Source: Nitrospira sp. (GTDB taxonomy: Bacteria; Nitrospirota; Nitrospiria; Nitrospirales; Nitrospiraceae). Taken from it: 32,679 bases of DNA. Both the position numbers and the translations under genes were made by a program. Each line of letters opens with the position of its first letter. Within the stretch, counting starts at the first letter, position 1. A model generated the notes under the pieces. The model had not been told where the DNA came from and made no database searches. It was given only the letters and a program-made list of their open reading frames with translations. Of the stretch, positions 16,210 through 26,562 are shown piece by piece. The stretch is from NCBI GenBank assembly GCA_021323395.1, contig JAJONL010000018.1:1-32679 (forward strand), read 5' to 3'.

Positions 16210-16239
16210 TTGCGGCTGTTCTTCGGGGTTTGCTAAGAT
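16210..16239 (+). promoter_or_regulatory. Promoter of tRNA-His (sigma-70 type)
   Basis: TTGCGG (16210-16215) and TAAGAT (16234-16239) are spaced by 18 bases, with an extended TG one base before the -10. Transcription would start about 16246, just before the tRNA (16261). This would also serve the PilZ gene that follows. Confidence 0.5.
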
Positions 16240-16260
16240 GTCCGTTCGATGCGCCCTTGT

Positions 16261-16338
16261 GGTGGGTGTAGCTCAGTTGGTTAGAGCGCCGGATTGTGGA
16301 TCCGGAGGTCGCGGGTTCGAAACCCGTCACTCACCCCA
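16261..16338 (+). tRNA. tRNA-His (anticodon GTG)
   Basis: The cloverleaf is complete. Acceptor arms 16262-16268 and 16328-16334 pair in all seven positions (one G-T), the anticodon stem 16289-16293/16301-16305 surrounds the loop with GTG at 16296-16298, and the T stem is 16311-16315/16323-16327. G at 16261 pairs with the C at 16335, giving the extra G-1:C73 pair specific for histidine tRNA. CCA (16336-16338) is encoded. A PilZ gene begins 25 bases behind it. Confidence 0.97.
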
Positions 16339-16363
16339 ATGCCCGGCGTCGCAACTTACTGGA

Positions 16364-16744
16364 ATGAATATGGCCAGCGGCGGCAATCAGGCTTCTTCGT
16401 TGATGTCCTATCCTTCAAGCGCACCCGTGAGTACCACGTTTCAGGTGCGGTCTTTTCGTCGTTTCGCCGTTCAATGTTCGGTCTATTATTCGAGCGATGA
16501 GGTCCAGGGAACGGGCATTGCGTGGAATCTCTCGCTCAACGGATGGCGTATCGATGGGACGCAACCAGTTGAACCAGGCACGGTGATCACTCTGTGTGTC
16601 TTTCTTCCAGGGCAGCATCCTACGGTATTCATCGATCGGGCGACTGTGCGCTGGTCGCGCGGGCAAGAGTTCGGTATCACGGTCACTTCCATCAAAGCCG
16701 ACGAGCATGCTCGGCTTGAACAATTCGTGACCGCCCTCATATAG
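16364..16744 (+). CDS. Single-domain PilZ protein (canonical c-di-GMP motifs)
   Basis: The 126-residue protein has a Ser/Ala-rich N-terminus (about 25 residues), then one PilZ domain. R29-SFR-R33 is the RxxxR motif and NLSLNG (N55, S57, G60) the [D/N]xSxxG motif, so c-di-GMP binding is expected. The domain ends in the usual VRWSRGQEFGITV strand and a C-terminal helix. I chose the ATG at 16364 because the open frame otherwise starts inside the tRNA; an ATG at 16370 is a possible alternative. The ribosome site is weak (GGA directly before). It is the first of three PilZ genes on this strand and may be cotranscribed with tRNA-His. Output target unknown. Confidence 0.85.
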   Translation: MNMASGGNQASSLMSYPSSAPVSTTFQVRSFRRFAVQCSVYYSSDEVQGTGIAWNLSLNGWRIDGTQPVEPGTVITLCVFLPGQHPTVFIDRATVRWSRGQEFGITVTSIKADEHARLEQFVTALI

Positions 16745-16903
16745 CCGCGATCTGTTCTTCGGGCCTATTCTCCTACGAGTCTCGACCTGTTCTTCCCGCG
16801 GTGCGGTAGGAAAAAGAATATTCATTGCGATCTCCGTCCCTATGGGTAGACTGGACCCTAGTCAAGGCTGAGCGGTTTGGATCCATTACCCTCGTCGTGA
16901 ACC

Positions 16904-17248
16904 ATGGCCAAGTCACCCACCTCACGTTCCCATTCTCGCGTCCCCGTCAGCTGTTTCCTCTACTATTTGGGAGAGGGTCTGGTTGGGACGGGTAAGGTGT
17001 GCGACCTGTCGGTAAACGGATGGCGAATCGAGGGGGACAAGCCGGTAACGGTGGGTATGAAACTGACATTACGCGTCTTTTTGCCCGATCAGCCCAAGGC
17101 CATTGATATCGAGGGAGTTACCGTGCAATGGACCAAAGATCGCCAGTTCGGTCTTGAAATCGCCAATGTGAATGCCCATGCGATGGCGCGTATTCGAGAA
17201 TTTGTCGAGTCAATGGTCAAGGCTTCGGACTCCTCCCGGGTAGCCTAA
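16904..17248 (+). CDS. Single-domain PilZ protein (canonical c-di-GMP motifs)
   Basis: This 114-residue protein is a near paralogue of its upstream neighbour: shared features include an xLSxNGWRI core, LTLRVFLPDQPK versus ITLCVFLPGQHP, and VQWTKDRQFGLEI versus VRWSRGQEFGITV. R8-SHS-R12 is the RxxxR motif and D34-L-S36-V-N-G39 the DxSxxG motif, so c-di-GMP binding is expected. It begins directly at the domain with almost no N-terminal tail. The gap to the preceding PilZ gene is 159 bp and shows no clear promoter. A tandem duplication of the first gene is likely. Confidence 0.87.
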   Translation: MAKSPTSRSHSRVPVSCFLYYLGEGLVGTGKVCDLSVNGWRIEGDKPVTVGMKLTLRVFLPDQPKAIDIEGVTVQWTKDRQFGLEIANVNAHAMARIREFVESMVKASDSSRVA

Positions 17249-17454
17249 GCTGCGTCTCCATTCAACTGGTCTCCGGCTTTTTTCCTATTAGCCTTTCCCT
17301 CCCCTGTCTCTTGAGGGTGATCGAGGGTTTCGTCACGCTGTCGTGGTGTGCCACAATCCGTATATCTAGCCGGACCTCACGACCCCCACTTTCGTGGACT
17401 ATCGGGCTATCCGATGTTTTTCATATTCTGCCGAGCGTGTGTCTGGAGGAATGG

Positions 17455-17817
17455 ATGGAACAACAGAATCGTCCTCGTTTTATTGTGGAATGCACGGGAT
17501 CGCGATCCGAAGACGGCCTATTGGTGTGGAATGGGCGGATGTTGGATCTTTCAATCCCCGGATGGTCCCGCACGGGGCTCAAGGGGTTGCAAGCCGGTGA
17601 CTCGCTCCAGCTCCATCTGCATATTCCCGGACAACCGAAGCCCCTGTCCGTGAGGCTGGCGACGATCCGCTGGGCGGATGAGTCTCGACTGGGTGTCGAG
17701 CCCATTCTGATGGATGCCGACGACCAGCTTCGACTCAACACTTTCGTCAACGCCGGCACGACCCCCACGTTCAGTACTGACCAGAAGGAACAGATCGTTA
17801 TTTCCGACGGCGGCTAG
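17455..17817 (+). CDS. Degenerate PilZ protein lacking the arginine motif
   Basis: I chose the ATG at 17455, which has GGAGG about 7 bases upstream; the upstream in-frame extension has no domain content. The 120-residue product keeps the domain core (DLSIPG at 31-36 with D31, S33, G36; LQLHLHIPGQPK; TIRWADESRLGVE) but has only R6-P-R8 where RxxxR should be. PilZ proteins without the arginine motif usually do not bind c-di-GMP and may act as partners of other PilZ domains. It shares the core and length with the two preceding PilZ genes and probably arose by the same duplications. It has a non-conserved C-terminal tail of about 20 residues. Confidence 0.75.
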   Translation: MEQQNRPRFIVECTGSRSEDGLLVWNGRMLDLSIPGWSRTGLKGLQAGDSLQLHLHIPGQPKPLSVRLATIRWADESRLGVEPILMDADDQLRLNTFVNAGTTPTFSTDQKEQIVISDGG

Positions 17818-18055: not shown

Positions 18056-19357
18056 ATGACGCCTGCTCCGAATGTTTCTGACGGTATCCATACCGCCCCG
18101 CTGACGCCTGACACCGAAGCACAAGTCGAACAATTTGCCCATACGGACATTCTGGTCGGTATTCCCAGTTTCAACAATGTTGAAACGATCGGGCATGTCG
18201 TCCGGGCCGTCAGCGCCGGCTTGGCCAAATATTTCCCCCAAGCCCGCGCGGTATTGGTGAATTCCGACGGCGGTTCGACGGATGGCACGCAGGACGTGGT
18301 GGCGCAAGCCGTGGTGGATCTCAAAACACTGTTCATCGGCGATCAGCAGAGTTCTCTCCATAAGATCATCACCCCCTATCACGGGATCCCGGGGAAGGGC
18401 AGCGCGTTTCGAACCATTTTTGAAATCGCTCGCCGTTTGAAAGCGAAAGCCTGCGCGGTGGTGGATTCGGATTTGCGCAGCATTACTCCGGAATGGATTG
18501 AACTGCTGGTGAGCCCGGTGTTCGAGCAGGGGTTCGACTACGTTGCGCCCTATTATTTACGCCACAAGTATGATGGAACCATTACCAATAGTATTGTGTA
18601 TCCCCTGACACGAACACTCTATGGCCATCGAATCAGGCAGCCCATCGGCGGAGATTTCGGCTTTTCCGGTCCCCTGGCCCAACACTATTTGGATAAACAT
18701 GTGTGGGAATCGGAAGTCGCCAAGTTCGGCATCGACATTTGGATGACGACGGAAGCGATCGCGAGCGGGGCCCGCGTCTGTCAAAGTTTTCTGGGGGCAA
18801 AAATCCATAATCCCAAAGATCCCGCAGCCGATCTGTCGGCCATGTTGGTGCAGGTGCTTGGGGCGGTGTTCGCTCTGATGGAAGATCATTATGCCGTGTG
18901 GGCCAAAACGGATGGATCGAATGCTGTACCACTGTTCGGATTTCAGTACGAGGTGGGAGTCGAGCCCGTCAACGTGAACGTCGATCGCATGATCGCCACG
19001 TTTCGGCAAGGCTTGAGCGATTTGGGCGCGATCTGGGACCAGATTTTGGCTCCAGGAACCAGACAAAGCCTGCGGGTCTTGGGAACCTGTTCCTTGCAGG
19101 AGTTCCGAATTCCCGACAGCCTTTGGGCGCGAGTGGTCTATGATGCCGCGGTCGCCTACCGAAATCGTGTGCTGCCTCGCGATCACGTGTTGAAGGCCTT
19201 CACCCCCTTGTATTTGGGGCGGACCGCCTCGTTTGTGCTGGATACGCAGGGACTCACGTCGAGCGAAGCCGAAGGGCGCATCGAAGCCCTGTGCCAGGCC
19301 TTTGAAAAGGATAAGTCCTATTTGGTGGCGCGGTGGAATGAACCCCATGCCGGCTGA
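18056..19357 (+). CDS. GT81-like glucosyl/mannosyl-3-phosphoglycerate synthase
   Basis: The 433-residue protein is a retaining GT-A glycosyltransferase. It shows VGIPSFNNVETI at about 34-45, NSDGGSTDGT at 69-78, PGKG at 112-115, the metal-binding DSD at 137-139, and QPIGGD at 195-200. The order PGKG - DSD - QPxGG matches the GpgS/MpgS (GT81) enzymes that transfer glucose or mannose from a nucleotide sugar to 3-phosphoglycerate, the first step to glucosyl- or mannosylglycerate. The C-terminal third (MTTEAIASGARVCQ and beyond) is longer than in the mycobacterial enzyme. Downstream are an MscS-like protein and, facing it, a mannosyl-3-phosphoglycerate phosphatase-family gene, which supports this reading. 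Donor sugar is unresolved. No strong ribosome site precedes the ATG. Confidence 0.75.
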   Translation: MTPAPNVSDGIHTAPLTPDTEAQVEQFAHTDILVGIPSFNNVETIGHVVRAVSAGLAKYFPQARAVLVNSDGGSTDGTQDVVAQAVVDLKTLFIGDQQSSLHKIITPYHGIPGKGSAFRTIFEIARRLKAKACAVVDSDLRSITPEWIELLVSPVFEQGFDYVAPYYLRHKYDGTITNSIVYPLTRTLYGHRIRQPIGGDFGFSGPLAQHYLDKHVWESEVAKFGIDIWMTTEAIASGARVCQSFLGAKIHNPKDPAADLSAMLVQVLGAVFALMEDHYAVWAKTDGSNAVPLFGFQYEVGVEPVNVNVDRMIATFRQGLSDLGAIWDQILAPGTRQSLRVLGTCSLQEFRIPDSLWARVVYDAAVAYRNRVLPRDHVLKAFTPLYLGRTASFVLDTQGLTSSEAEGRIEALCQAFEKDKSYLVARWNEPHAG

Positions 19358-19411
19358 GGCTCGCGACTCGATCCGTCTGAAGGCAGAAGGGTGGGGTTGG
19401 AGGAGGGAAGC

Positions 19412-20119
19412 ATGAAAGAATTTTTTGAAAAAGGTCTCCTGGACCCTTTGGAGTTGATGGCGAGACAGGTGTTGGCGGTCCTACCCAGCTTGCTCGCGAT
19501 GTCGATCATTTTCTTTGCTGGATTGGTGGTGGCGTGGACGGCCAGCCAGGCGCTGGAGCGGTTGCTGCGGGTGGTCGGATTAGACCGGCTTTTCGACCGC
19601 CTGGGTGTCACGGGTGCCCTGCTCCGCGGAGGCGTCAAAACCGATCCCTCACGGTTGGTCGGACAAGCCGCCTATTGGCTGGTCATGATTTTCGCCACGG
19701 TGGCCGCATTAGGGGCGCTCAATCTCCAGCCGATCAATGACTTTGCCAAATCATTCCTGGCATACGTCCCGCATCTCGTGACGGGCGGGCTCATCCTTAT
19801 TGCGGGATGGTTGCTGTCGAATTTTGTGTCTCAGGCCGTGCTGATCGCGGCAGTGAATGCCGGGCTGCCGCCGGCACGGCTCGTGGCCACCTGCTCCCGT
19901 TGGGGCATTCAGTTGTTGGCAGTCGCCATGGCGCTGGAGCAACTGGGAATCGCTCAGAATATCGTCGTTGTGGGTTTCGGTATCACCCTCGGAGGAATCG
20001 TCTTGGCGGGGGCAATCGCCTTTGGCCTGGGGGCGAAAGATTTGGCTAAAGATTACCTGGAGCGTGGCCTCTCCGTCCGGTCGCGAGACGGGGCGCCCGA
20101 TGATTTACGCCATTTGTAA
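19412..20119 (+). CDS. MscS-like transmembrane-only protein (conserved TM helix repeat)
   Basis: The ATG at 19412 follows GGAGGAGGGAAGC, so I prefer it to an in-frame start 21 bases upstream. The 235-residue product has about five membrane helices (about 20-42, 84-103, 118-138, 160-178, 184-206). The last, ITLGGIVLAGAIAFGLGAKDLAKDYL, resembles the pore-lining helix of small mechanosensitive channels. It lacks the soluble beta and alpha-beta domains of MscS and ends about 29 residues after the last helix. This pattern fits the conserved TM helix group. A channel for osmolyte release is a reasonable guess given its place 54 bp behind the glycosylglycerate synthase, but gating cannot be inferred. 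Confidence 0.7.
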   Translation: MKEFFEKGLLDPLELMARQVLAVLPSLLAMSIIFFAGLVVAWTASQALERLLRVVGLDRLFDRLGVTGALLRGGVKTDPSRLVGQAAYWLVMIFATVAALGALNLQPINDFAKSFLAYVPHLVTGGLILIAGWLLSNFVSQAVLIAAVNAGLPPARLVATCSRWGIQLLAVAMALEQLGIAQNIVVVGFGITLGGIVLAGAIAFGLGAKDLAKDYLERGLSVRSRDGAPDDLRHL

Positions 20120-20162
20120 TGGAACAATGGGGCAGTCGAGAATAGAGGGAAAAGGATGTTGC

Positions 20163-20393
20163 ATGGATGAACATATCTCGGACGTCGAGGCAGAGGCCAA
20201 GGCGCGCCGCTGGTTAGGCGGGGAGGCGTCGGTTCCTCGCTATCCACATCGCCGTCAGTATCCGTTTACGTTCAATGGCTCTTTACTCAGCCTTGTGGCG
20301 CTGGCTGTGGGGGTCGGGCTCGCGGGAGGCATTCTCATCGGCCTTCAGTGTCGTCGACGCCCCAATGTAACTGTAACAAGGGCCGGGGTGTAG
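20163..20393 (+). CDS. Small single-pass membrane protein
   Basis: This 76-residue protein has an acidic N-terminal segment, a basic PRYPHRRQYPFTF stretch, one membrane helix (about residues 42-62, LLSLVALAVGVGLAGGILIGL) and a short basic cytoplasm-like tail. A ribosome site (AAGGAT, 5 bases upstream) supports the ATG at 20163. It is 43 bp behind the MscS-like gene on the same strand, so it belongs to that transcript. I do not recognise the family. It could be a small partner of the channel or an unrelated membrane peptide. Confidence 0.55.
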   Translation: MDEHISDVEAEAKARRWLGGEASVPRYPHRRQYPFTFNGSLLSLVALAVGVGLAGGILIGLQCRRRPNVTVTRAGV

Positions 20394-20448
20394 TGCGTCA
20401 ATCATTGCGCTGGCTCAGGGTGGTGCGGGACTGTCAATCAGCCGTCCG

Positions 20449-21273
20449 TCAGAGAGTCGGCAAGAGATCCGTGAGGCTTCGATTCCATCCGACTGGTCCC
20501 ACTCCGACGGCGCGGATGAGATGGGGAAGCTGCACGTCCGGATCGTAGGAGCGGTCAGGCTTCTGCACGAGAATGGGATGGTCCATCAAGGCCAGCATGG
20601 GGAGATCGTTGAGGCTGTCACCGAGTCCGATCGTCACCACGCCGCCGCCCTCCTCTCGCGCGAGACGTCTGTAGCACTCCATTAACACCAGGCTCGCGAC
20701 CCCCTTATCGTTCGACCCCATCAAGTGGTAGAACCGTCCCCCCCGAGTGCATTGTAGCCCGCGCCCCTGGGCTGCCTTCTGTAGTCGATTCCATTCGATT
20801 TCAGGTCCGTCAACCACAAAAGGTTCGTCATACTCCCGCTCCATCGCCAGCAAAGCCTCAGCGGCCGATAACCCTGTGACCCGCGCCACCTCCTCGACGG
20901 AGAGATCTCCGAACCCCTGCAGGCGATAACCCAGATCCCGGCCGATTTCTTTCAGCGCCGCTCGCAGGAGGAGATAGGGCGTCCCAATGGCGAGGACGTC
21001 ATAGTTTCCGTTGGATATCGAGTCCTTGATGGGAAAGGGGAAATAACCTTTCGGCACGTACAGAGCGCCGCCATTCTCCACAATGAAGGGATGGAGAGGG
21101 CTCAGCCTGACGCGCAGCGGCTCCATCTCCGCTCTCGTCTTGCTTGAAACTAAGACGAGCGCGGCACCGAGTCTGCGAATCATTGACAGGGCCACGTGCG
21201 CTGCCTCGAAGGAGTAACTGGCCGCGTCGAGCAGGCATCCGTCGAGGTCGCTGTAGACGATTATCCGCGACAT
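20449..21273 (-). CDS. Mannosyl-3-phosphoglycerate phosphatase-family HAD protein (YedP-like)
   Basis: The 274-residue protein shows the Cof-type HAD motif YSDLDGCLLD with D9 and D11, the SSKTRAEME stretch, FIVENGGALYVP and the closing GDSLNDLPML. These are the signature segments of mannosyl-3-phosphoglycerate phosphatases (MpgP/YedP), which cleave the phosphate from mannosyl- or glucosyl-3-phosphoglycerate to give the free compatible solute. The cap domain lies between SSKT and GDSLND. Together with the synthase-like gene at 18056 it completes the two-step pathway. It is convergent to that cluster (gap 55 bp to the small membrane protein), so it is expressed separately. No strong ribosome site is visible for the ATG at 21273. 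Confidence 0.83.
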   Translation of the reverse strand: MSRIIVYSDLDGCLLDAASYSFEAAHVALSMIRRLGAALVLVSSKTRAEMEPLRVRLSPLHPFIVENGGALYVPKGYFPFPIKDSISNGNYDVLAIGTPYLLLRAALKEIGRDLGYRLQGFGDLSVEEVARVTGLSAAEALLAMEREYDEPFVVDGPEIEWNRLQKAAQGRGLQCTRGGRFYHLMGSNDKGVASLVLMECYRRLAREEGGGVVTIGLGDSLNDLPMLALMDHPILVQKPDRSYDPDVQLPHLIRAVGVGPVGWNRSLTDLLPTL

Positions 21274-21960
21274 GGTTTGTACATCTGCCTCGCGGCACTA
21301 TACGGAAGTTTCGCTGGTAGGTAAAACAGCCTTCCACAGACGAAACAATGCTGAGACAGGTCCCTCGGGGCTCTTGTCTTATGAATTCTGGCGTTGTCGC
21401 TAGGAGTCTGTCCGAGTAATGCCATTCTACTGCGGCAAATGATCTGCGGCAGTCTGCGTCGTTCTCGGCCCGAAAAAATCCTCAACGTATTTCAGCGAAT
21501 ACGCTTCCGGTTTTTTCGAGCCTGCGGCCTCGCAACGAAGGATTACTCGGACAGACTCCTAGGTCCCATTGTCTCGGCTGCCTCGCCTGTAAAACCTCGT
21601 GCGAGGAGATTCCTACCATTCGACCAGAAATGTGAATGATGTCTCAGTTTGTGTCTGCCCTGACACAGAGGAGTGCCCCATCAAGATCGGACCTCGTCAT
21701 ACCGAAAAAGGATAGGTACAAGGTGATCTCAGATCTGCAGGGCAGTGGCGCTCATGTTCGGATCCTCTTGGGGTCTTAAGTTCGCGCATCCGGCCGAGAA
21801 GCCGGACGGGGAAGCTGGCAGCGTGCAGGCATCTCTTTTGCTTTCATCTCTGATTTTGTTACGCCCTGCACCATTGTTCAAGTCTTGGCAGATCAACGCC
21901 CCCGACATCTGTGTCAAACAGCATCAATGGTAAAAACACAGAAATATTTTAAGGTTATCC
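21274..21960. other. Long intergenic region upstream of the 1533-residue protein
   Basis: This stretch of 687 bp holds no gene I can support. It contains the palindromic element (separate entry) and a 6-bp stem (TCCGGC/GCCGGA, 21789-21806). I found no match to a known riboswitch. The AT-rich last 40 bases before the GTG at 21961, with AAGG as a ribosome site, are probably the promoter region of the large gene. Confidence 0.45.
21400..21562. repeat. Palindromic element with perfect 21-bp terminal inverted repeats
   Basis: The 21 bases at 21400-21420 (CTAGGAGTCTG and on) are the exact reverse complement of 21542-21562. Inside, the centre folds again: CGTATT (21486-21491) pairs with AATACG, and CGAAAAAA pairs with TTTTTTCG, with partial pairing in between. 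No protein gene lies inside. This fits a non-autonomous MITE-like or REP-type dispersed element. No target duplication is clear. Confidence 0.7.
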
Positions 21961-24900
21961 GTGCGATCCGATAAAAAAGCTCCCCTCAAATCGGATAAAA
22001 AATCTCCTCCAAAAATCCAGAAAAAGGGCACCCTCGGCTACAACAAAAAGTCGGCGTTGCTCGAAGACGCGATTACACAAATGAACGCCGGTAAGTACGG
22101 CCGGGCCTCCTCCGCGCTGAAGGATTTGCTTACCCTCGATCCCCTCAATGCCGAAGCCCGGCGTCTCTTTGCGACCCTTCACTTGCGTTTGGGAAGCCTG
22201 ATGAGCGCAAGAACGGCGTTCGAGTCCCTGGCCCGCGAGGCGATGGAACGGCAGGATTATTGGCTGGCAGAATCCCTTTTGCGGGAATATTTGACTGCGG
22301 GACCGCGCTGCGTGCCCTTTTTGGAAATGTTAGGGCATGTCTATGAGGAAAAGGGAGATGTCATGGCGGCGGTGGCAGAGTACGGTAAAGCAGTGGAGGT
22401 ATTGCTGGAAGATCCGGACAAAGACCACCCGCACCGAGCCAGCGAGCTGTTCGGAAGAATTCGTTCCATTGCGCCGGGCAGCCCCGTCGCCTTCCGCTTC
22501 GCGGCCATGTTCGATACCGTCACGGGCCAGGTGGTACAGAGTTTCCCTCAGCCCTCAGAGGGAGATGTGGAAACTGTCACTGCTCCCGCGATCCCTATTT
22601 CAGAATCGACGGTTGACCCCATTGCCGCGGTTGCCATGCCGTGGGAGCAGATGGAGTCCACGCCGGCTGACTCAGTAGCATCAGCGGGGGAAGAAGTTTC
22701 GACCACCGTAGGTCCGAGCGAAACGAAGGATGAGCTAGTGGTGGCACCCGCTTCGGCAGAGTTCGTTACGGAGACCTCAGAAAGAGGTGAGACACCCGAT
22801 TTGGCGTCGTCTGCTCCGGCGAGTGATTCACCTGCCTGGTCGAATAGCCCGCTGCCGGGGAGGGCTTCCCTGGCAGACACCTCAGCCCTTGAGCTGGATC
22901 GGACGGCATTTCAGAACGAGGCGACGGCGCTTGATTCAGCGCTGCCTGCTTCGACAGCGGCCGCGGACGCAAAACCAACATTCGAAGTGCTGGCCGAAGC
23001 AAGCAGCCATCCGATCACTGACAAGCCGGCGAGCCCGGTCCCTATGCCTTGGGATCAGGTTGAAGAGAATGCTTCTGCGCGATCACCTGAAAAGGCCACT
23101 GAATTTACAGACACACATGGGGCGAACCTGACAGAACCAGGAGAAGCCGACGCTCCCGTCCCCACGCTCACCGAAGCCCCAATTGCGCCCTTCACGATGA
23201 CGGATGAAGGCAGCGGCCTCTCCATGCCGGAGAGGATGACCGGTTTGGCCTCACTCCCCCTACAGCAGGATTACGACCTGGCGACTTCACGCTCACCCGA
23301 GGTTGACGGTGCAGGGGCGATCGAAGTTGACCCAGGGTTTTCCGTCGTGCCTGGCGGGGCCGCTCTCACAGTGCCGATGAACCTTGAACCCATGTCTTCA
23401 TCGATTGAGGTGCTTAAGACCGCCAGCGCTCATCCGATTACAGAGCCGCCTGTAAGCCCCGCCTCCATGCCTTGGGACCAGGTTGAGGAGATGTCGGAAA
23501 CCCAGTCTTCAACAGCTGAGCCTGAATCGGTTGACGAAGTGAACGCGGAGGCCCCGGAACCAGCCGCGGAGACTGTGCTGGTGAATACCGGGGCCGCGAC
23601 GGATTCATCTCCAACATCGGAATCCTCATTTATCTCCTCCTTAGGGCTCTCCTGGGAAGATATTCTTGCGGCCGTCACCGCGATGCAATCCTCTCCCGCA
23701 TTCCCTCCGCCCACACCGGCAGCAGAACGCGAACCGACAACCGCGCTCGCCGTGCCGGACGCGAACGATTCGACGGCGACGCCACAACTACCCTCCTCAG
23801 AGCCAGAGTGGAGTTCGCTCGCGCCTCCGGCGTCGGACACCTTGGCGAGCCTGGTTGAGAATTCCTCCCCACTTTCAGCACCAATGCCGTGGGAGCAGAT
23901 CGAAGTCGAGGACGTGGCTATTCTCCGACCGGACCCGGAGCCGGAATTTGGGCCGGTCGCAGCCCATGGTGCCGTCATGGCTCAAGACTCCACTGTCGTC
24001 ATGCCGGTTGCGGAGGCCGGACGTGATTTGCGTGGCATGCTGTCGCCCATCGCGGACGAGGTGATACGTGACGGTGAATCCACTTCGATGCCGGACTTTC
24101 GGAATCTCGTTGCTGATGCGTCTGTCGAACCAGCCGGACAGCCCTCGCCAATTCACATTCCACCGGAGGCTCTTAAACCGGTCGAACCCTTTGAGGTGGA
24201 ACTGGTGGCACCATCCGAGCCGCCGCTAGGATCATCCGCCGTCGATCTCACCATGGAGCAGTCGCTGCGGAGGGACGGGGTCCTTTCGAACTCGTCATTC
24301 CTCCTGGAGCAGCCTCCCTCCCTCCCTATCCCTCTTGAGCTCACCGACCTCATAACTGCCGCGCCTGTTGTCGATGCGGCTGTGCGTTCGGTTGCGCCTT
24401 CTTTGCTCGACAACCAGTCCGTCCCACAGACTGAGCCGATGGCGATAATTTCAGAGGCCGTTCGGATAGCGGAAAGTGATGAGCCGACATCGCATTCTGA
24501 AAACGTGGCGCGGATGACGCAGAGACACGTATCCACAACTGATTTCGCGGGCGGTGCTACCTCGATACATATAGTGAGTGAATCAGATGTTCCGGAGGCA
24601 CAGGTATGGAGTGAGCCGACAGTCCCGCCGTTGGAAGACTGTGAAGTCCAATCCACAGCTGCGTCTGTCGCCCATCATTCAGACGAGTTGAACCTGACTC
24701 CTGTCGAATTCGTGCCGGCTTCTGAAGCGAAGGCGCGGGCGGCCGATTTTGAAATTCCGGTTGCTGTTTCTGCTGATGCACAAGTGGCTGCACCAACGGC
24801 CGGCGCGGAGGCGTCGACAGAGAAGGGTCCTCGCATTCTGTGGGATGACTCCTCGTCAAAGCCTATCTTGAGCGCTTCGACGGGAAATCTGCTGACACGC

Positions 24901-26562
24901 TGGCTGAGAAGGCCGGCAGATGCCGCCTCAACCGAGGCCAGCCCTGCGGCTGCGGTTACTGGTGAATCAGGATCTCCGGTCGCTCCGCCACCGATAGAAC
25001 AACAAGAGGCCGCTCCTTGTCTGGCGGACCGCCCCCTCGATCGGTCGATCAATTCCACACTCTCTCCAGCGGAGCAGTCTGCCCCTCGTCCTACACGGAG
25101 CAAGCCGGTCATAGAACAGGTATGGCGTCATGTCAGTCGAGCAGCAGTCTCCCTCATCGGTGCGGGAGTCTCGACGACGCGCTTGATGATCGCTCTGGTC
25201 GTGGCGATGTCCAGCCTCTCCGTGGCCTTCCTCGCCGGCTGTCTGGGCATCATCGCATTGACGTGGCTGCTTCTTGAAGAGCAGCCCACAGCAGCCTATC
25301 GAAGCATGACCTCGGTGCCCCAACACTCGTTGGAGGACTCTCAAAAAAACGGATATTTTCTCTTGCTTGGCTTCGGGGCCGCACCGGCACAGGACCCGGT
25401 CCAGGCCGGAATCGATCGACGAGCCGAGGAGGCCGATCGGGCCGTCACCCAAACCTGTTTAACGGGTGGCGACCATGGTTCCGGCAGCCAACAGGGGGCG
25501 TCGGCTGAGGCAGCGGGGAAATTTTGGAAATCCCCGGATCCGGCGGCTCAGATGCGGGTGCAGGCGTCCGGGGTGAAGTCCTGGGTTTCTCAGGCCGGGG
25601 TGGCCATGGGTCGGTACCGCCAGTGGCTCTCCAAACCCTTCGAAGACTGGGGCTATGGACAGCCGGTCAGCCCACATTGTGGGGTGATTCTCTATGCTCA
25701 TCGACTCTATGTCGCGGAAGGGTTTGCGCAAGATGTCGAGGCGGGGGTCGCGCGGGTTGAGACCGATCTCACCGCCTGGCGAACTGTCTTGGGGCAAGCC
25801 AAAACCATGCCGGTCAAAATGCTGGCCGCTGACGCTCTCAATGACGACATCGCAGTCGTCAGTGGACTGTTGGTGCGCCCTGATCTGGATGATCGATGGA
25901 TCAGTCGGCTCGCCAAGCTTGCGCGGCCGCTTGATCAAGCCGAGCAGTCCATTCGTTGGCCGATGCAGAGCCAATTCGTGCTGGCCACGAAGACGTTGGA
26001 TGAGGCCTTGAGCCATGATTCGACCGGTGCCCGTCCAATTTATGGGTCGCTTGCCGCGGTCCTGCCGCTGCCGAAGCAACGGCGGTTCAATGGTTATGCA
26101 GAATATTACGAGGTCGTGGCCAAGGCTGAAGCAGAAGGCCGGTATGCCGACCTGCCGAAACCATCTCAATTCGTACGCACCCCGCCCTATGGTTTGGCCG
26201 ATGTCGTCGTGAATCCCATTGAGAGCCTCGTCGGAATCGAGCCGCTCCCGACTTGGGAGATGTTTGCCGGTCGGGTCCTGGAAACCGACGCGCGTCTGCG
26301 CCTGGCATCCTTGCAAGCCTGGCTCCGACGGACCCCGCACGAGCAGAATTTGCTTACCAGAGTCGCCAAGGCCGGACAGGGTCTGTACGACCCTTTTACG
26401 GGCTACCCGATGCTGGTCAATATGAAAAAAGGAGTCTTCTACAGCGTCGGACGGGATCTGAAGGACAATGACGCTCAAGAGCGATTCGATGTAGTTGCGC
26501 AGATCCCCCCGACCGCATTGGCCGGTGGCAAACGGCCGGCCGATACGATTGATAGCAAGTAG
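21961..26562 (+). CDS. Giant TPR - low-complexity - membrane - C-terminal domain protein
   Basis: The 1533-residue protein begins (GTG, AAGG 6 bases upstream) with a Lys-rich stretch of about 25 residues. It continues with TPR-like helices at about 30-195. A very long Pro/Ser/Ala/Glu-rich disordered region follows, about 195-1000. Inside it the motif MPW[DE]Q[VMI]E recurs at residues 226, 362, 503 and 642, about 136-141 apart; the two central copies extend to EVL-AS-HPIT...PMPWDQVEE. Residues 1075-1106 form one membrane helix (LMIALVVAMSSLSVAFLAG). The rest, probably outside the cytoplasm, is a globular region ending with DPFTG (1477) and YSVGRD (1494). Short relatives of that end occur in many uncharacterised exported proteins. 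The function is unknown; a scaffold or envelope assembly protein is conceivable. A long antisense frame (25459-26610) looks like a shadow. Confidence 0.8.
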   Translation: MRSDKKAPLKSDKKSPPKIQKKGTLGYNKKSALLEDAITQMNAGKYGRASSALKDLLTLDPLNAEARRLFATLHLRLGSLMSARTAFESLAREAMERQDYWLAESLLREYLTAGPRCVPFLEMLGHVYEEKGDVMAAVAEYGKAVEVLLEDPDKDHPHRASELFGRIRSIAPGSPVAFRFAAMFDTVTGQVVQSFPQPSEGDVETVTAPAIPISESTVDPIAAVAMPWEQMESTPADSVASAGEEVSTTVGPSETKDELVVAPASAEFVTETSERGETPDLASSAPASDSPAWSNSPLPGRASLADTSALELDRTAFQNEATALDSALPASTAAADAKPTFEVLAEASSHPITDKPASPVPMPWDQVEENASARSPEKATEFTDTHGANLTEPGEADAPVPTLTEAPIAPFTMTDEGSGLSMPERMTGLASLPLQQDYDLATSRSPEVDGAGAIEVDPGFSVVPGGAALTVPMNLEPMSSSIEVLKTASAHPITEPPVSPASMPWDQVEEMSETQSSTAEPESVDEVNAEAPEPAAETVLVNTGAATDSSPTSESSFISSLGLSWEDILAAVTAMQSSPAFPPPTPAAEREPTTALAVPDANDSTATPQLPSSEPEWSSLAPPASDTLASLVENSSPLSAPMPWEQIEVEDVAILRPDPEPEFGPVAAHGAVMAQDSTVVMPVAEAGRDLRGMLSPIADEVIRDGESTSMPDFRNLVADASVEPAGQPSPIHIPPEALKPVEPFEVELVAPSEPPLGSSAVDLTMEQSLRRDGVLSNSSFLLEQPPSLPIPLELTDLITAAPVVDAAVRSVAPSLLDNQSVPQTEPMAIISEAVRIAESDEPTSHSENVARMTQRHVSTTDFAGGATSIHIVSESDVPEAQVWSEPTVPPLEDCEVQSTAASVAHHSDELNLTPVEFVPASEAKARAADFEIPVAVSADAQVAAPTAGAEASTEKGPRILWDDSSSKPILSASTGNLLTRWLRRPADAASTEASPAAAVTGESGSPVAPPPIEQQEAAPCLADRPLDRSINSTLSPAEQSAPRPTRSKPVIEQVWRHVSRAAVSLIGAGVSTTRLMIALVVAMSSLSVAFLAGCLGIIALTWLLLEEQPTAAYRSMTSVPQHSLEDSQKNGYFLLLGFGAAPAQDPVQAGIDRRAEEADRAVTQTCLTGGDHGSGSQQGASAEAAGKFWKSPDPAAQMRVQASGVKSWVSQAGVAMGRYRQWLSKPFEDWGYGQPVSPHCGVILYAHRLYVAEGFAQDVEAGVARVETDLTAWRTVLGQAKTMPVKMLAADALNDDIAVVSGLLVRPDLDDRWISRLAKLARPLDQAEQSIRWPMQSQFVLATKTLDEALSHDSTGARPIYGSLAAVLPLPKQRRFNGYAEYYEVVAKAEAEGRYADLPKPSQFVRTPPYGLADVVVNPIESLVGIEPLPTWEMFAGRVLETDARLRLASLQAWLRRTPHEQNLLTRVAKAGQGLYDPFTGYPMLVNMKKGVFYSVGRDLKDNDAQERFDVVAQIPPTALAGGKRPADTIDSK

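Follow-up and report, generated by a model that had tools for sequence, protein, structure and literature searches.

A probable one-step glycosylglycerate synthase and its MscS-like partner protein in Nitrospira

The synthesis of compatible solutes and their emergency release are usually treated apart, release being ascribed to general-purpose channels. The present analysis concerns a locus of Nitrospira sp. (GenBank assembly GCA_021323395.1) in which the gene for a glycosyltransferase of GT-A fold, here termed GT, is followed by that for a small membrane protein related to the mechanosensitive channel MscS, here termed MSC. The whole stretch of DNA analysed, hereafter the window, is the 32,679-nucleotide contig JAJONL010000018.1 (C218) of this 3.5-Mb genome. 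In Persephonella marina, Ggs (EC 2.4.1.268) reportedly makes glucosylglycerate in one step and is encoded in a gpgS-gpgP-ggs operon, from which, to our knowledge, no partner membrane protein is known. Further comparators are the mannosylglycerate synthase (MGS) of Rhodothermus marinus (family GT78; structures 2bo4 and 2y4m) and the phosphoglycerate synthases GpgS/MpgS of family GT81 (mycobacterial, Rubrobacter and methanogen types), which belong to the same superfamily as GT. The acceptor carboxylate is held by Val186/Thr187 in Mycobacterium tuberculosis GpgS and by Ile138/Thr139 in MGS, and the equivalent metal-site residues of the two enzymes are Asp136/Asp102 and His258/His217 (PMC2581804). 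Hypo-osmotic shock releases mannosylglycerate and ectoine through mechanosensitive channels (PMC11009771). A predicted small mechanosensitive channel, CmpX of Pseudomonas aeruginosa, has cmaX and cfrX as gene neighbours (PMC7641640).

GT is probably a single-step glycosylglycerate synthase of a second family, distinct from the phosphoglycerate synthase GpgS, because its modelled fold matches that of MGS and the positions of its acceptor site agree. Searches of the PDB with single sequences returned no match for GT, nor for MSC, and profiles were needed; with a GT profile, mannosylglycerate synthase ranked first. The AlphaFold2 model of GT (mean pLDDT, the predicted local confidence score, 84) matched MGS (2y4m) as a full-length fold (Z 33.1, root-mean-square deviation 3.6, 358 of 377 residues), and matched GpgS with Z 19.6 over 231 residues, corresponding to the N-terminal GT-A domain. 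MGS has the aligned PGKG, DxD, D-x-x-I-T loop, GID and metal His in common with GT; unlike the MGS gene, that of GT precedes MSC and is linked to GpgS and a phosphatase, and the two proteins are 18% identical. The motifs PGKG, DSD and QPIGG, which a preliminary description of this DNA had read in the synthase, are all present in the window GT, which also matches PF00535 in a Pfam scan. The Pfam model MGS_GT (PF21969) was not among its matches up to E 0.1, and the GT part of one relative (L208) barely exceeds the cut-off of that model (27.3 against 27 bits).

The same description had regarded the synthase as GT81-like, and this assignment did not hold. GT scores 48.4 bits with the curated GpgS/MpgS model NF010496 (GT81), far below the cut-off of 262, has no match to the GpgS model NF040724 and is only 24% identical to GpgS over the aligned part. 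The genome's own GpgS lies apart from the window on contig C131 (C131:1682-2908) and is 80% identical to the GpgS encoded directly upstream of the window-GT ortholog in relatives, which matches NF040724 at 365 bits, the strict cut-off of 700 not being reached. When the acceptor sites of 116 GT and 48 GpgS sequences were aligned, the acceptor loop and position 227 differed between the families in every sequence compared. Across GT the loop D-G-T-I-T is nearly invariant and position 227 is Asp, whereas GpgS has a GR(V/A) loop with a G-R-V-T signature, in which Arg replaces the first Thr of GT (48/48), and Glu, a member of a Lys-Asp-Glu ion pair, at position 227 (also 48/48). The window GT, with T175 and D227, carries neither the GpgS Arg nor the Glu, and MGS reads DAMIT and GID at the corresponding positions. 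From the absent Arg we infer that the acceptor of GT would be unphosphorylated.

The association of GT with MSC was surveyed by profile matches in 148 Nitrospirota genomes. MSC is the next gene after GT on the same strand in 77 of 82 GT matches (the profile ends being a median of 20 nt apart), and GT directly precedes 77 of the 83 strong MSC matches; the arrangement is far beyond chance and bears out the earlier proposal that synthesis is linked to a channel-like protein. Among the five unpaired GT, MSC lies 0.7 kb further on in one (G125, L113), the match falls across two contigs in another (G080) and the match is partial in a third (G063), while those of G140 and G007 look truly partner-less. 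The pair also occurs beyond Nitrospirota, in Desulfobacterota, Acidobacteria and Methylomirabilis. Among 297 sampled Desulfobacterota genomes (the phylum of G150, of Deltaproteobacteria/Syntrophaceae type), MSC stood behind all 23 of the best GT matches and was absent behind most of the more distant ones. Full-length MscS in place of MSC was found among the Desulfobacterota GT lacking MSC in L096 (same strand) and L132 (opposite strand) only, so there is no general replacement.

In a tree of 97 GT rows, which was a quick one without bootstraps and with rows picked partly by MSC status, the MSC-paired GT form one clade of 56 rows (SH-aLRT 99). Two of these rows have no MSC label, namely L191, where a partial MSC begins at the contig edge, and L113, and two more carry a broken MSC (L078 and the second copy in L069). 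GT and MSC distances are correlated over 52 pairs (r 0.54, Mantel p ~0.0005), a result that shared ancestry alone could also produce, and 28 of the 52 pairs show an overlap of start and stop, a count that is overstated because longest open reading frames were used. Ratios of nonsynonymous to synonymous substitution (dN/dS) of 0.01-0.12 for intact GT and MSC indicate purifying selection. Taken as gene order, the pairing suggests that the making and the releasing of a protective solute may be coupled. The open-access literature searched yielded no description of GT paired with MSC and none of glycosylglycerate synthesis in Nitrospira.

CmpX and other 'msc' proteins (NF033912, PF05552) presumably form a conserved transmembrane helix family in common with MSC; unlike cmpX with its neighbours cmaX and cfrX, the MSC gene here goes with that of a solute synthase. 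MSC exceeds the cut-off of the NCBIfam 'msc' subfamily NF033912 (104.6 against 100 bits) and matches PF05552, the only Pfam family over its cut-off; the MscS beta domain PF00924 was not found in it. Members of the MSC family are ~235 aa long, have some five helices and end soon after the third MscS-like helix. Their last three helices match TM1-TM3 of MscS by profile (E ~0.05, weak on its own), and the MSC fold matches TM1-TM3 of Escherichia coli MscS with Z 10.9 and a root-mean-square deviation of 1.7 over 73 residues; Foldseek placed unrelated helical proteins first and MscS at rank 50, and a second aligner put MscS on top. Unlike E. coli MscS, with which it shares this region, MSC has no beta or C-terminal cytosolic domain and has two extra N-terminal helices. 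Judged by its sequence, MSC is a transmembrane-only MscS relative without a cytosolic domain. The preliminary view of a truncated, MscS-like channel was right as to the likeness and wrong as to the truncation, the whole family ending at this length. The longest MSC reading frame starts at GTG 19391 (242 aa, to 20119), but the translation start is likely ATG 19412, which GGAGGAGGG precedes and at which most of the family alignment begins.

MSC is also found directly behind GpgS (L109, L110) and behind a trehalose-synthase/maltokinase fusion (L102). Full-length MscS occurs as well in the clusters of some relatives (L209, L212, L217, L218, L025, L027), and a sugar-type ABC importer in some, which gives these loci an osmotic setting. 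Separately, two MSC relatives scoring ~250 bits have another kind of gene immediately before them: in L106 (L106:3326-5723) it encodes an AmiC-like cell-wall amidase, and in L105 (L105:2465-4853) it is of like size.

A second GT-MSC pair of this genome (G000) lies at C22:92438-94391 (L083:9378-11394), within a cluster ordered DUF5752 - GH13 - TreT - GT - MSC - GlgE - maltokinase - GH13. In this GT, EGQ stands in place of DSD and PGRD in place of PGKG, and the metal His is missing, yet the copy is conserved in relatives. Together with twelve further second copies from Nitrospirota it makes up a degenerate set of 13, of which 12 have lost the second DxD Asp, 11 the metal His and all of them Lys114; judging from these losses, the enzymes are probably inactive. 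Twelve of the copies form one clade nested in the MSC-paired clade, and L200 lies elsewhere on a long branch. The dN/dS ratios, which are rough because most synonymous distances are large, were 0.09-0.21 for degenerate GT, 0.04-0.11 for their MSC and 0.03-0.09 for intact GT. That a conserved, probably inactive GT keeps its MSC speaks for a GT-MSC partnership that extends beyond catalysis and does more than provide solute.

The glycosylglycerate theme of the preliminary description was sustained by the GpgS, GpgP/MpgP and glycerate 2-kinase neighbours of GT and by GpgS-GT fusions. GpgS adjoins GT in most Nitrospira, and GpgS - GT - MSC - phosphatase is the order in many Nitrospira relatives; GT in relatives lies with gpgS/gpgP-type genes as Ggs reportedly does, a likeness of gene order. 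Three Nitrospirota genomes (L207-L209) encode GpgS-GT fusion proteins of ~780-800 aa with a GpgS part of mycobacterial type, which in L208 exceeds the curated cut-off (417 against 262 bits), and these genomes are without a separate long GpgS. About 20 GT loci contain glycerate 2-kinase relatives, of which many directly adjoin GT, and in Desulfobacterota GpgS - phosphatase - GT clusters without MSC occur. A thiamine diphosphate-dependent enzyme encoded upstream of Nitrospira GpgS was considered as a glyoxylate carboligase supplying glycerate and was rejected; it better matches phenylpyruvate decarboxylase models, all below cut-off.

The four open reading frames of the locus lie where they had been placed, on the strands given and with GT and the phosphatase facing each other (Table 1), and the phosphatase does belong to the mannosyl-3-phosphoglycerate phosphatase family. 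It exceeds the cut-off of the MPGP subfamily TIGR01486 (217.8 against 164.75 bits), being the only gene in the genome to do so, and its PDB matches are mannosyl-3-phosphoglycerate phosphatases. It falls below that of the MpgP equivalog TIGR02461 (208.8 against 244.35 bits), so its substrate is not fixed by family score. The proposal that it dephosphorylates the product of the window GT was not upheld, GT resembling a one-step enzyme without the GpgS acceptor signature and GpgS being encoded elsewhere; the partner of the phosphatase is likely to be the GpgS on C131. Co-occurrence of the four genes in relatives was seen for GT and MSC but not for the 76-aa gene, which among the loci compared is confined to the N. 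defluvii clade (L001, L003-L019), and it was partial for the phosphatase, which is sometimes absent and varies in position and strand, facing GT-MSC in the N. defluvii clade and in other Nitrospira either following MSC directly in the same orientation or lying on the opposite side.

Table 1. Coordinates of the features discussed; positions are those of the window unless a locus is named
Feature	Position	Strand	Basis
GT, glycosyltransferase of GT-A fold, 433 aa; probably makes glycosylglycerate in one step (MGS/Ggs-like)	18056..19357	+	Open reading frame; PF00535; profile; AlphaFold2 model; acceptor-site residues
Shine-Dalgarno-like GGAGGAGGG for MSC start at 19412	19399..19407	+	Read in sequence
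MSC, transmembrane-only MscS-family membrane protein, 235 aa	19412..20119	+	NF033912, PF05552, TM1-TM3 profile and fold match
76-aa protein, one predicted membrane helix, N. defluvii clade-specific	20163..20393	+	Open reading frame
GpgP/MpgP-type HAD phosphatase, 274 aa	20449..21273	-	TIGR01486 over cut-off; PDB matches 3ztw, 1wzc
GpgS-GT fusion	L207:2751-5144		
GpgS-GT fusion	L208:4032-6365		
GpgS-GT fusion	L209:3273-5663		

The interpretation preferred here, with moderate confidence for the whole, is that the window contains an osmolyte module of a nitrite-oxidising Nitrospira belonging to the N. defluvii clade. GT most likely glycosylates D-glycerate in a single step with a nucleotide sugar as donor, the first candidate for the sugar being glucose; a two-step route, consisting of GpgS on C131 and the window phosphatase, would also be kept in the genome; and MSC would serve GT as a dedicated partner, in the likeliest case as a pore through which solute or ions leave upon hypo-osmotic shock. 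We infer the substrate, the product and the pore function, as well as any physical contact between GT and MSC. Several points weigh against this interpretation. The keeping of both a one-step and a two-step route in one genome is not readily accounted for, and a fold match alone fails to separate the GT and GpgS families, as long GpgS may share the C-terminal domain, so that the residues outweigh the fold in the assignment of GT. In addition, MSC has neither the beta nor the C-terminal domain of MscS, channel activity of transmembrane-only relatives is a prediction, and weaker MSC relatives are found in unrelated surroundings, those of ~170 bits for instance in a cluster with a molybdopterin dehydrogenase (L100) and the two of ~250 bits in L105 and L106, which ties only the strong MSC subfamily to solute synthesis. 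With regard to the enzyme, the sub-threshold NF010496 match, the PGKG and DSD motifs and the nearby phosphatase could be taken to mean that the window GT is itself a phosphoglycerate synthase (GpgS/MpgS, GT81) whose two-step pathway is completed by the facing phosphatase; this is very unlikely, given the separate GpgS of the genome and the lack in GT of the Arg and Glu invariant in 48 GpgS, and the presence of GpgS and GT side by side in relatives, even fused, makes it unlikely that both catalyse the same step. GT might instead add a second sugar to glucosylglycerate made by GpgS, or to its phosphate, giving a disaccharide-glycerate such as mannosylglucosylglycerate for release by MSC. The presence of GpgS in 62 of 67 GT-bearing Nitrospirota genomes agrees with this proposal, and the fusions fit consecutive steps, but it is considered unlikely, since GT keeps the loop residues with which MGS holds the glycerate carboxylate, fitting glycerate as the acceptor, and the glycerate 2-kinase neighbours point to free D-glycerate.

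Other alternatives concern MSC, which might be a membrane anchor or scaffold holding the synthase at the membrane and not a channel. Such a role would suit the absence of the beta and cytosolic MscS domains and the persistence of the pairing with catalytically degenerate GT, where contact rather than supply of solute may be selected. Nevertheless, it is rather doubtful, as the last three helices match TM1-TM3 of MscS, and the occurrence of MSC behind GpgS and the trehalose-synthase/maltokinase fusion, together with the full-length MscS that accompanies GT in L096 instead, makes solute release a simpler common theme. It is also conceivable, although only as a tentative possibility, that GT and MSC together make up a channel that senses a solute or is gated by it. 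In such a complex the GT fold would stand in, in trans, for the cytosolic domain absent from MSC, and catalysis would be dispensable, as in the trehalose-locus paralogs (one of them in this genome), which have lost the Lys, the second Asp of the metal site and, for the most part, the His but retain both their MSC pairing and purifying selection.

By GT, the closest public relatives of the window are Nitrospira defluvii-type genomes (94-98% protein identity). Upstream of GT, three consecutive PilZ-domain genes (16238-17817) are kept across the N. defluvii clade, and their domains make a link to cyclic di-GMP possible. Beyond the phosphatase, a 163-bp element (21400-21562) with perfect 21-bp terminal inverted repeats (CTAGGAGTCTGTCCGAGTAAT) and >20 long copies elsewhere in the genome looks like an element of the miniature inverted-repeat transposable (MITE) type. 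The gene at 21961-26562 encodes a protein of 1533 aa that has TPR at its N terminus and a long Pro/Ser/Glu-rich middle in which PMPWDQVEE-like motifs recur.

This GT should not be annotated as GpgS. A synthase accompanied in several phyla by a channel-like protein of its own would constitute a unit dedicated to making and releasing solute. The catalytically degenerate copies lend themselves well to asking whether an enzyme fold has been co-opted as a sensing or gating subunit. For Nitrospira, which is among the main organisms oxidising nitrite both in nature and in wastewater plants, glycosylglycerate is proposed as an osmolyte.

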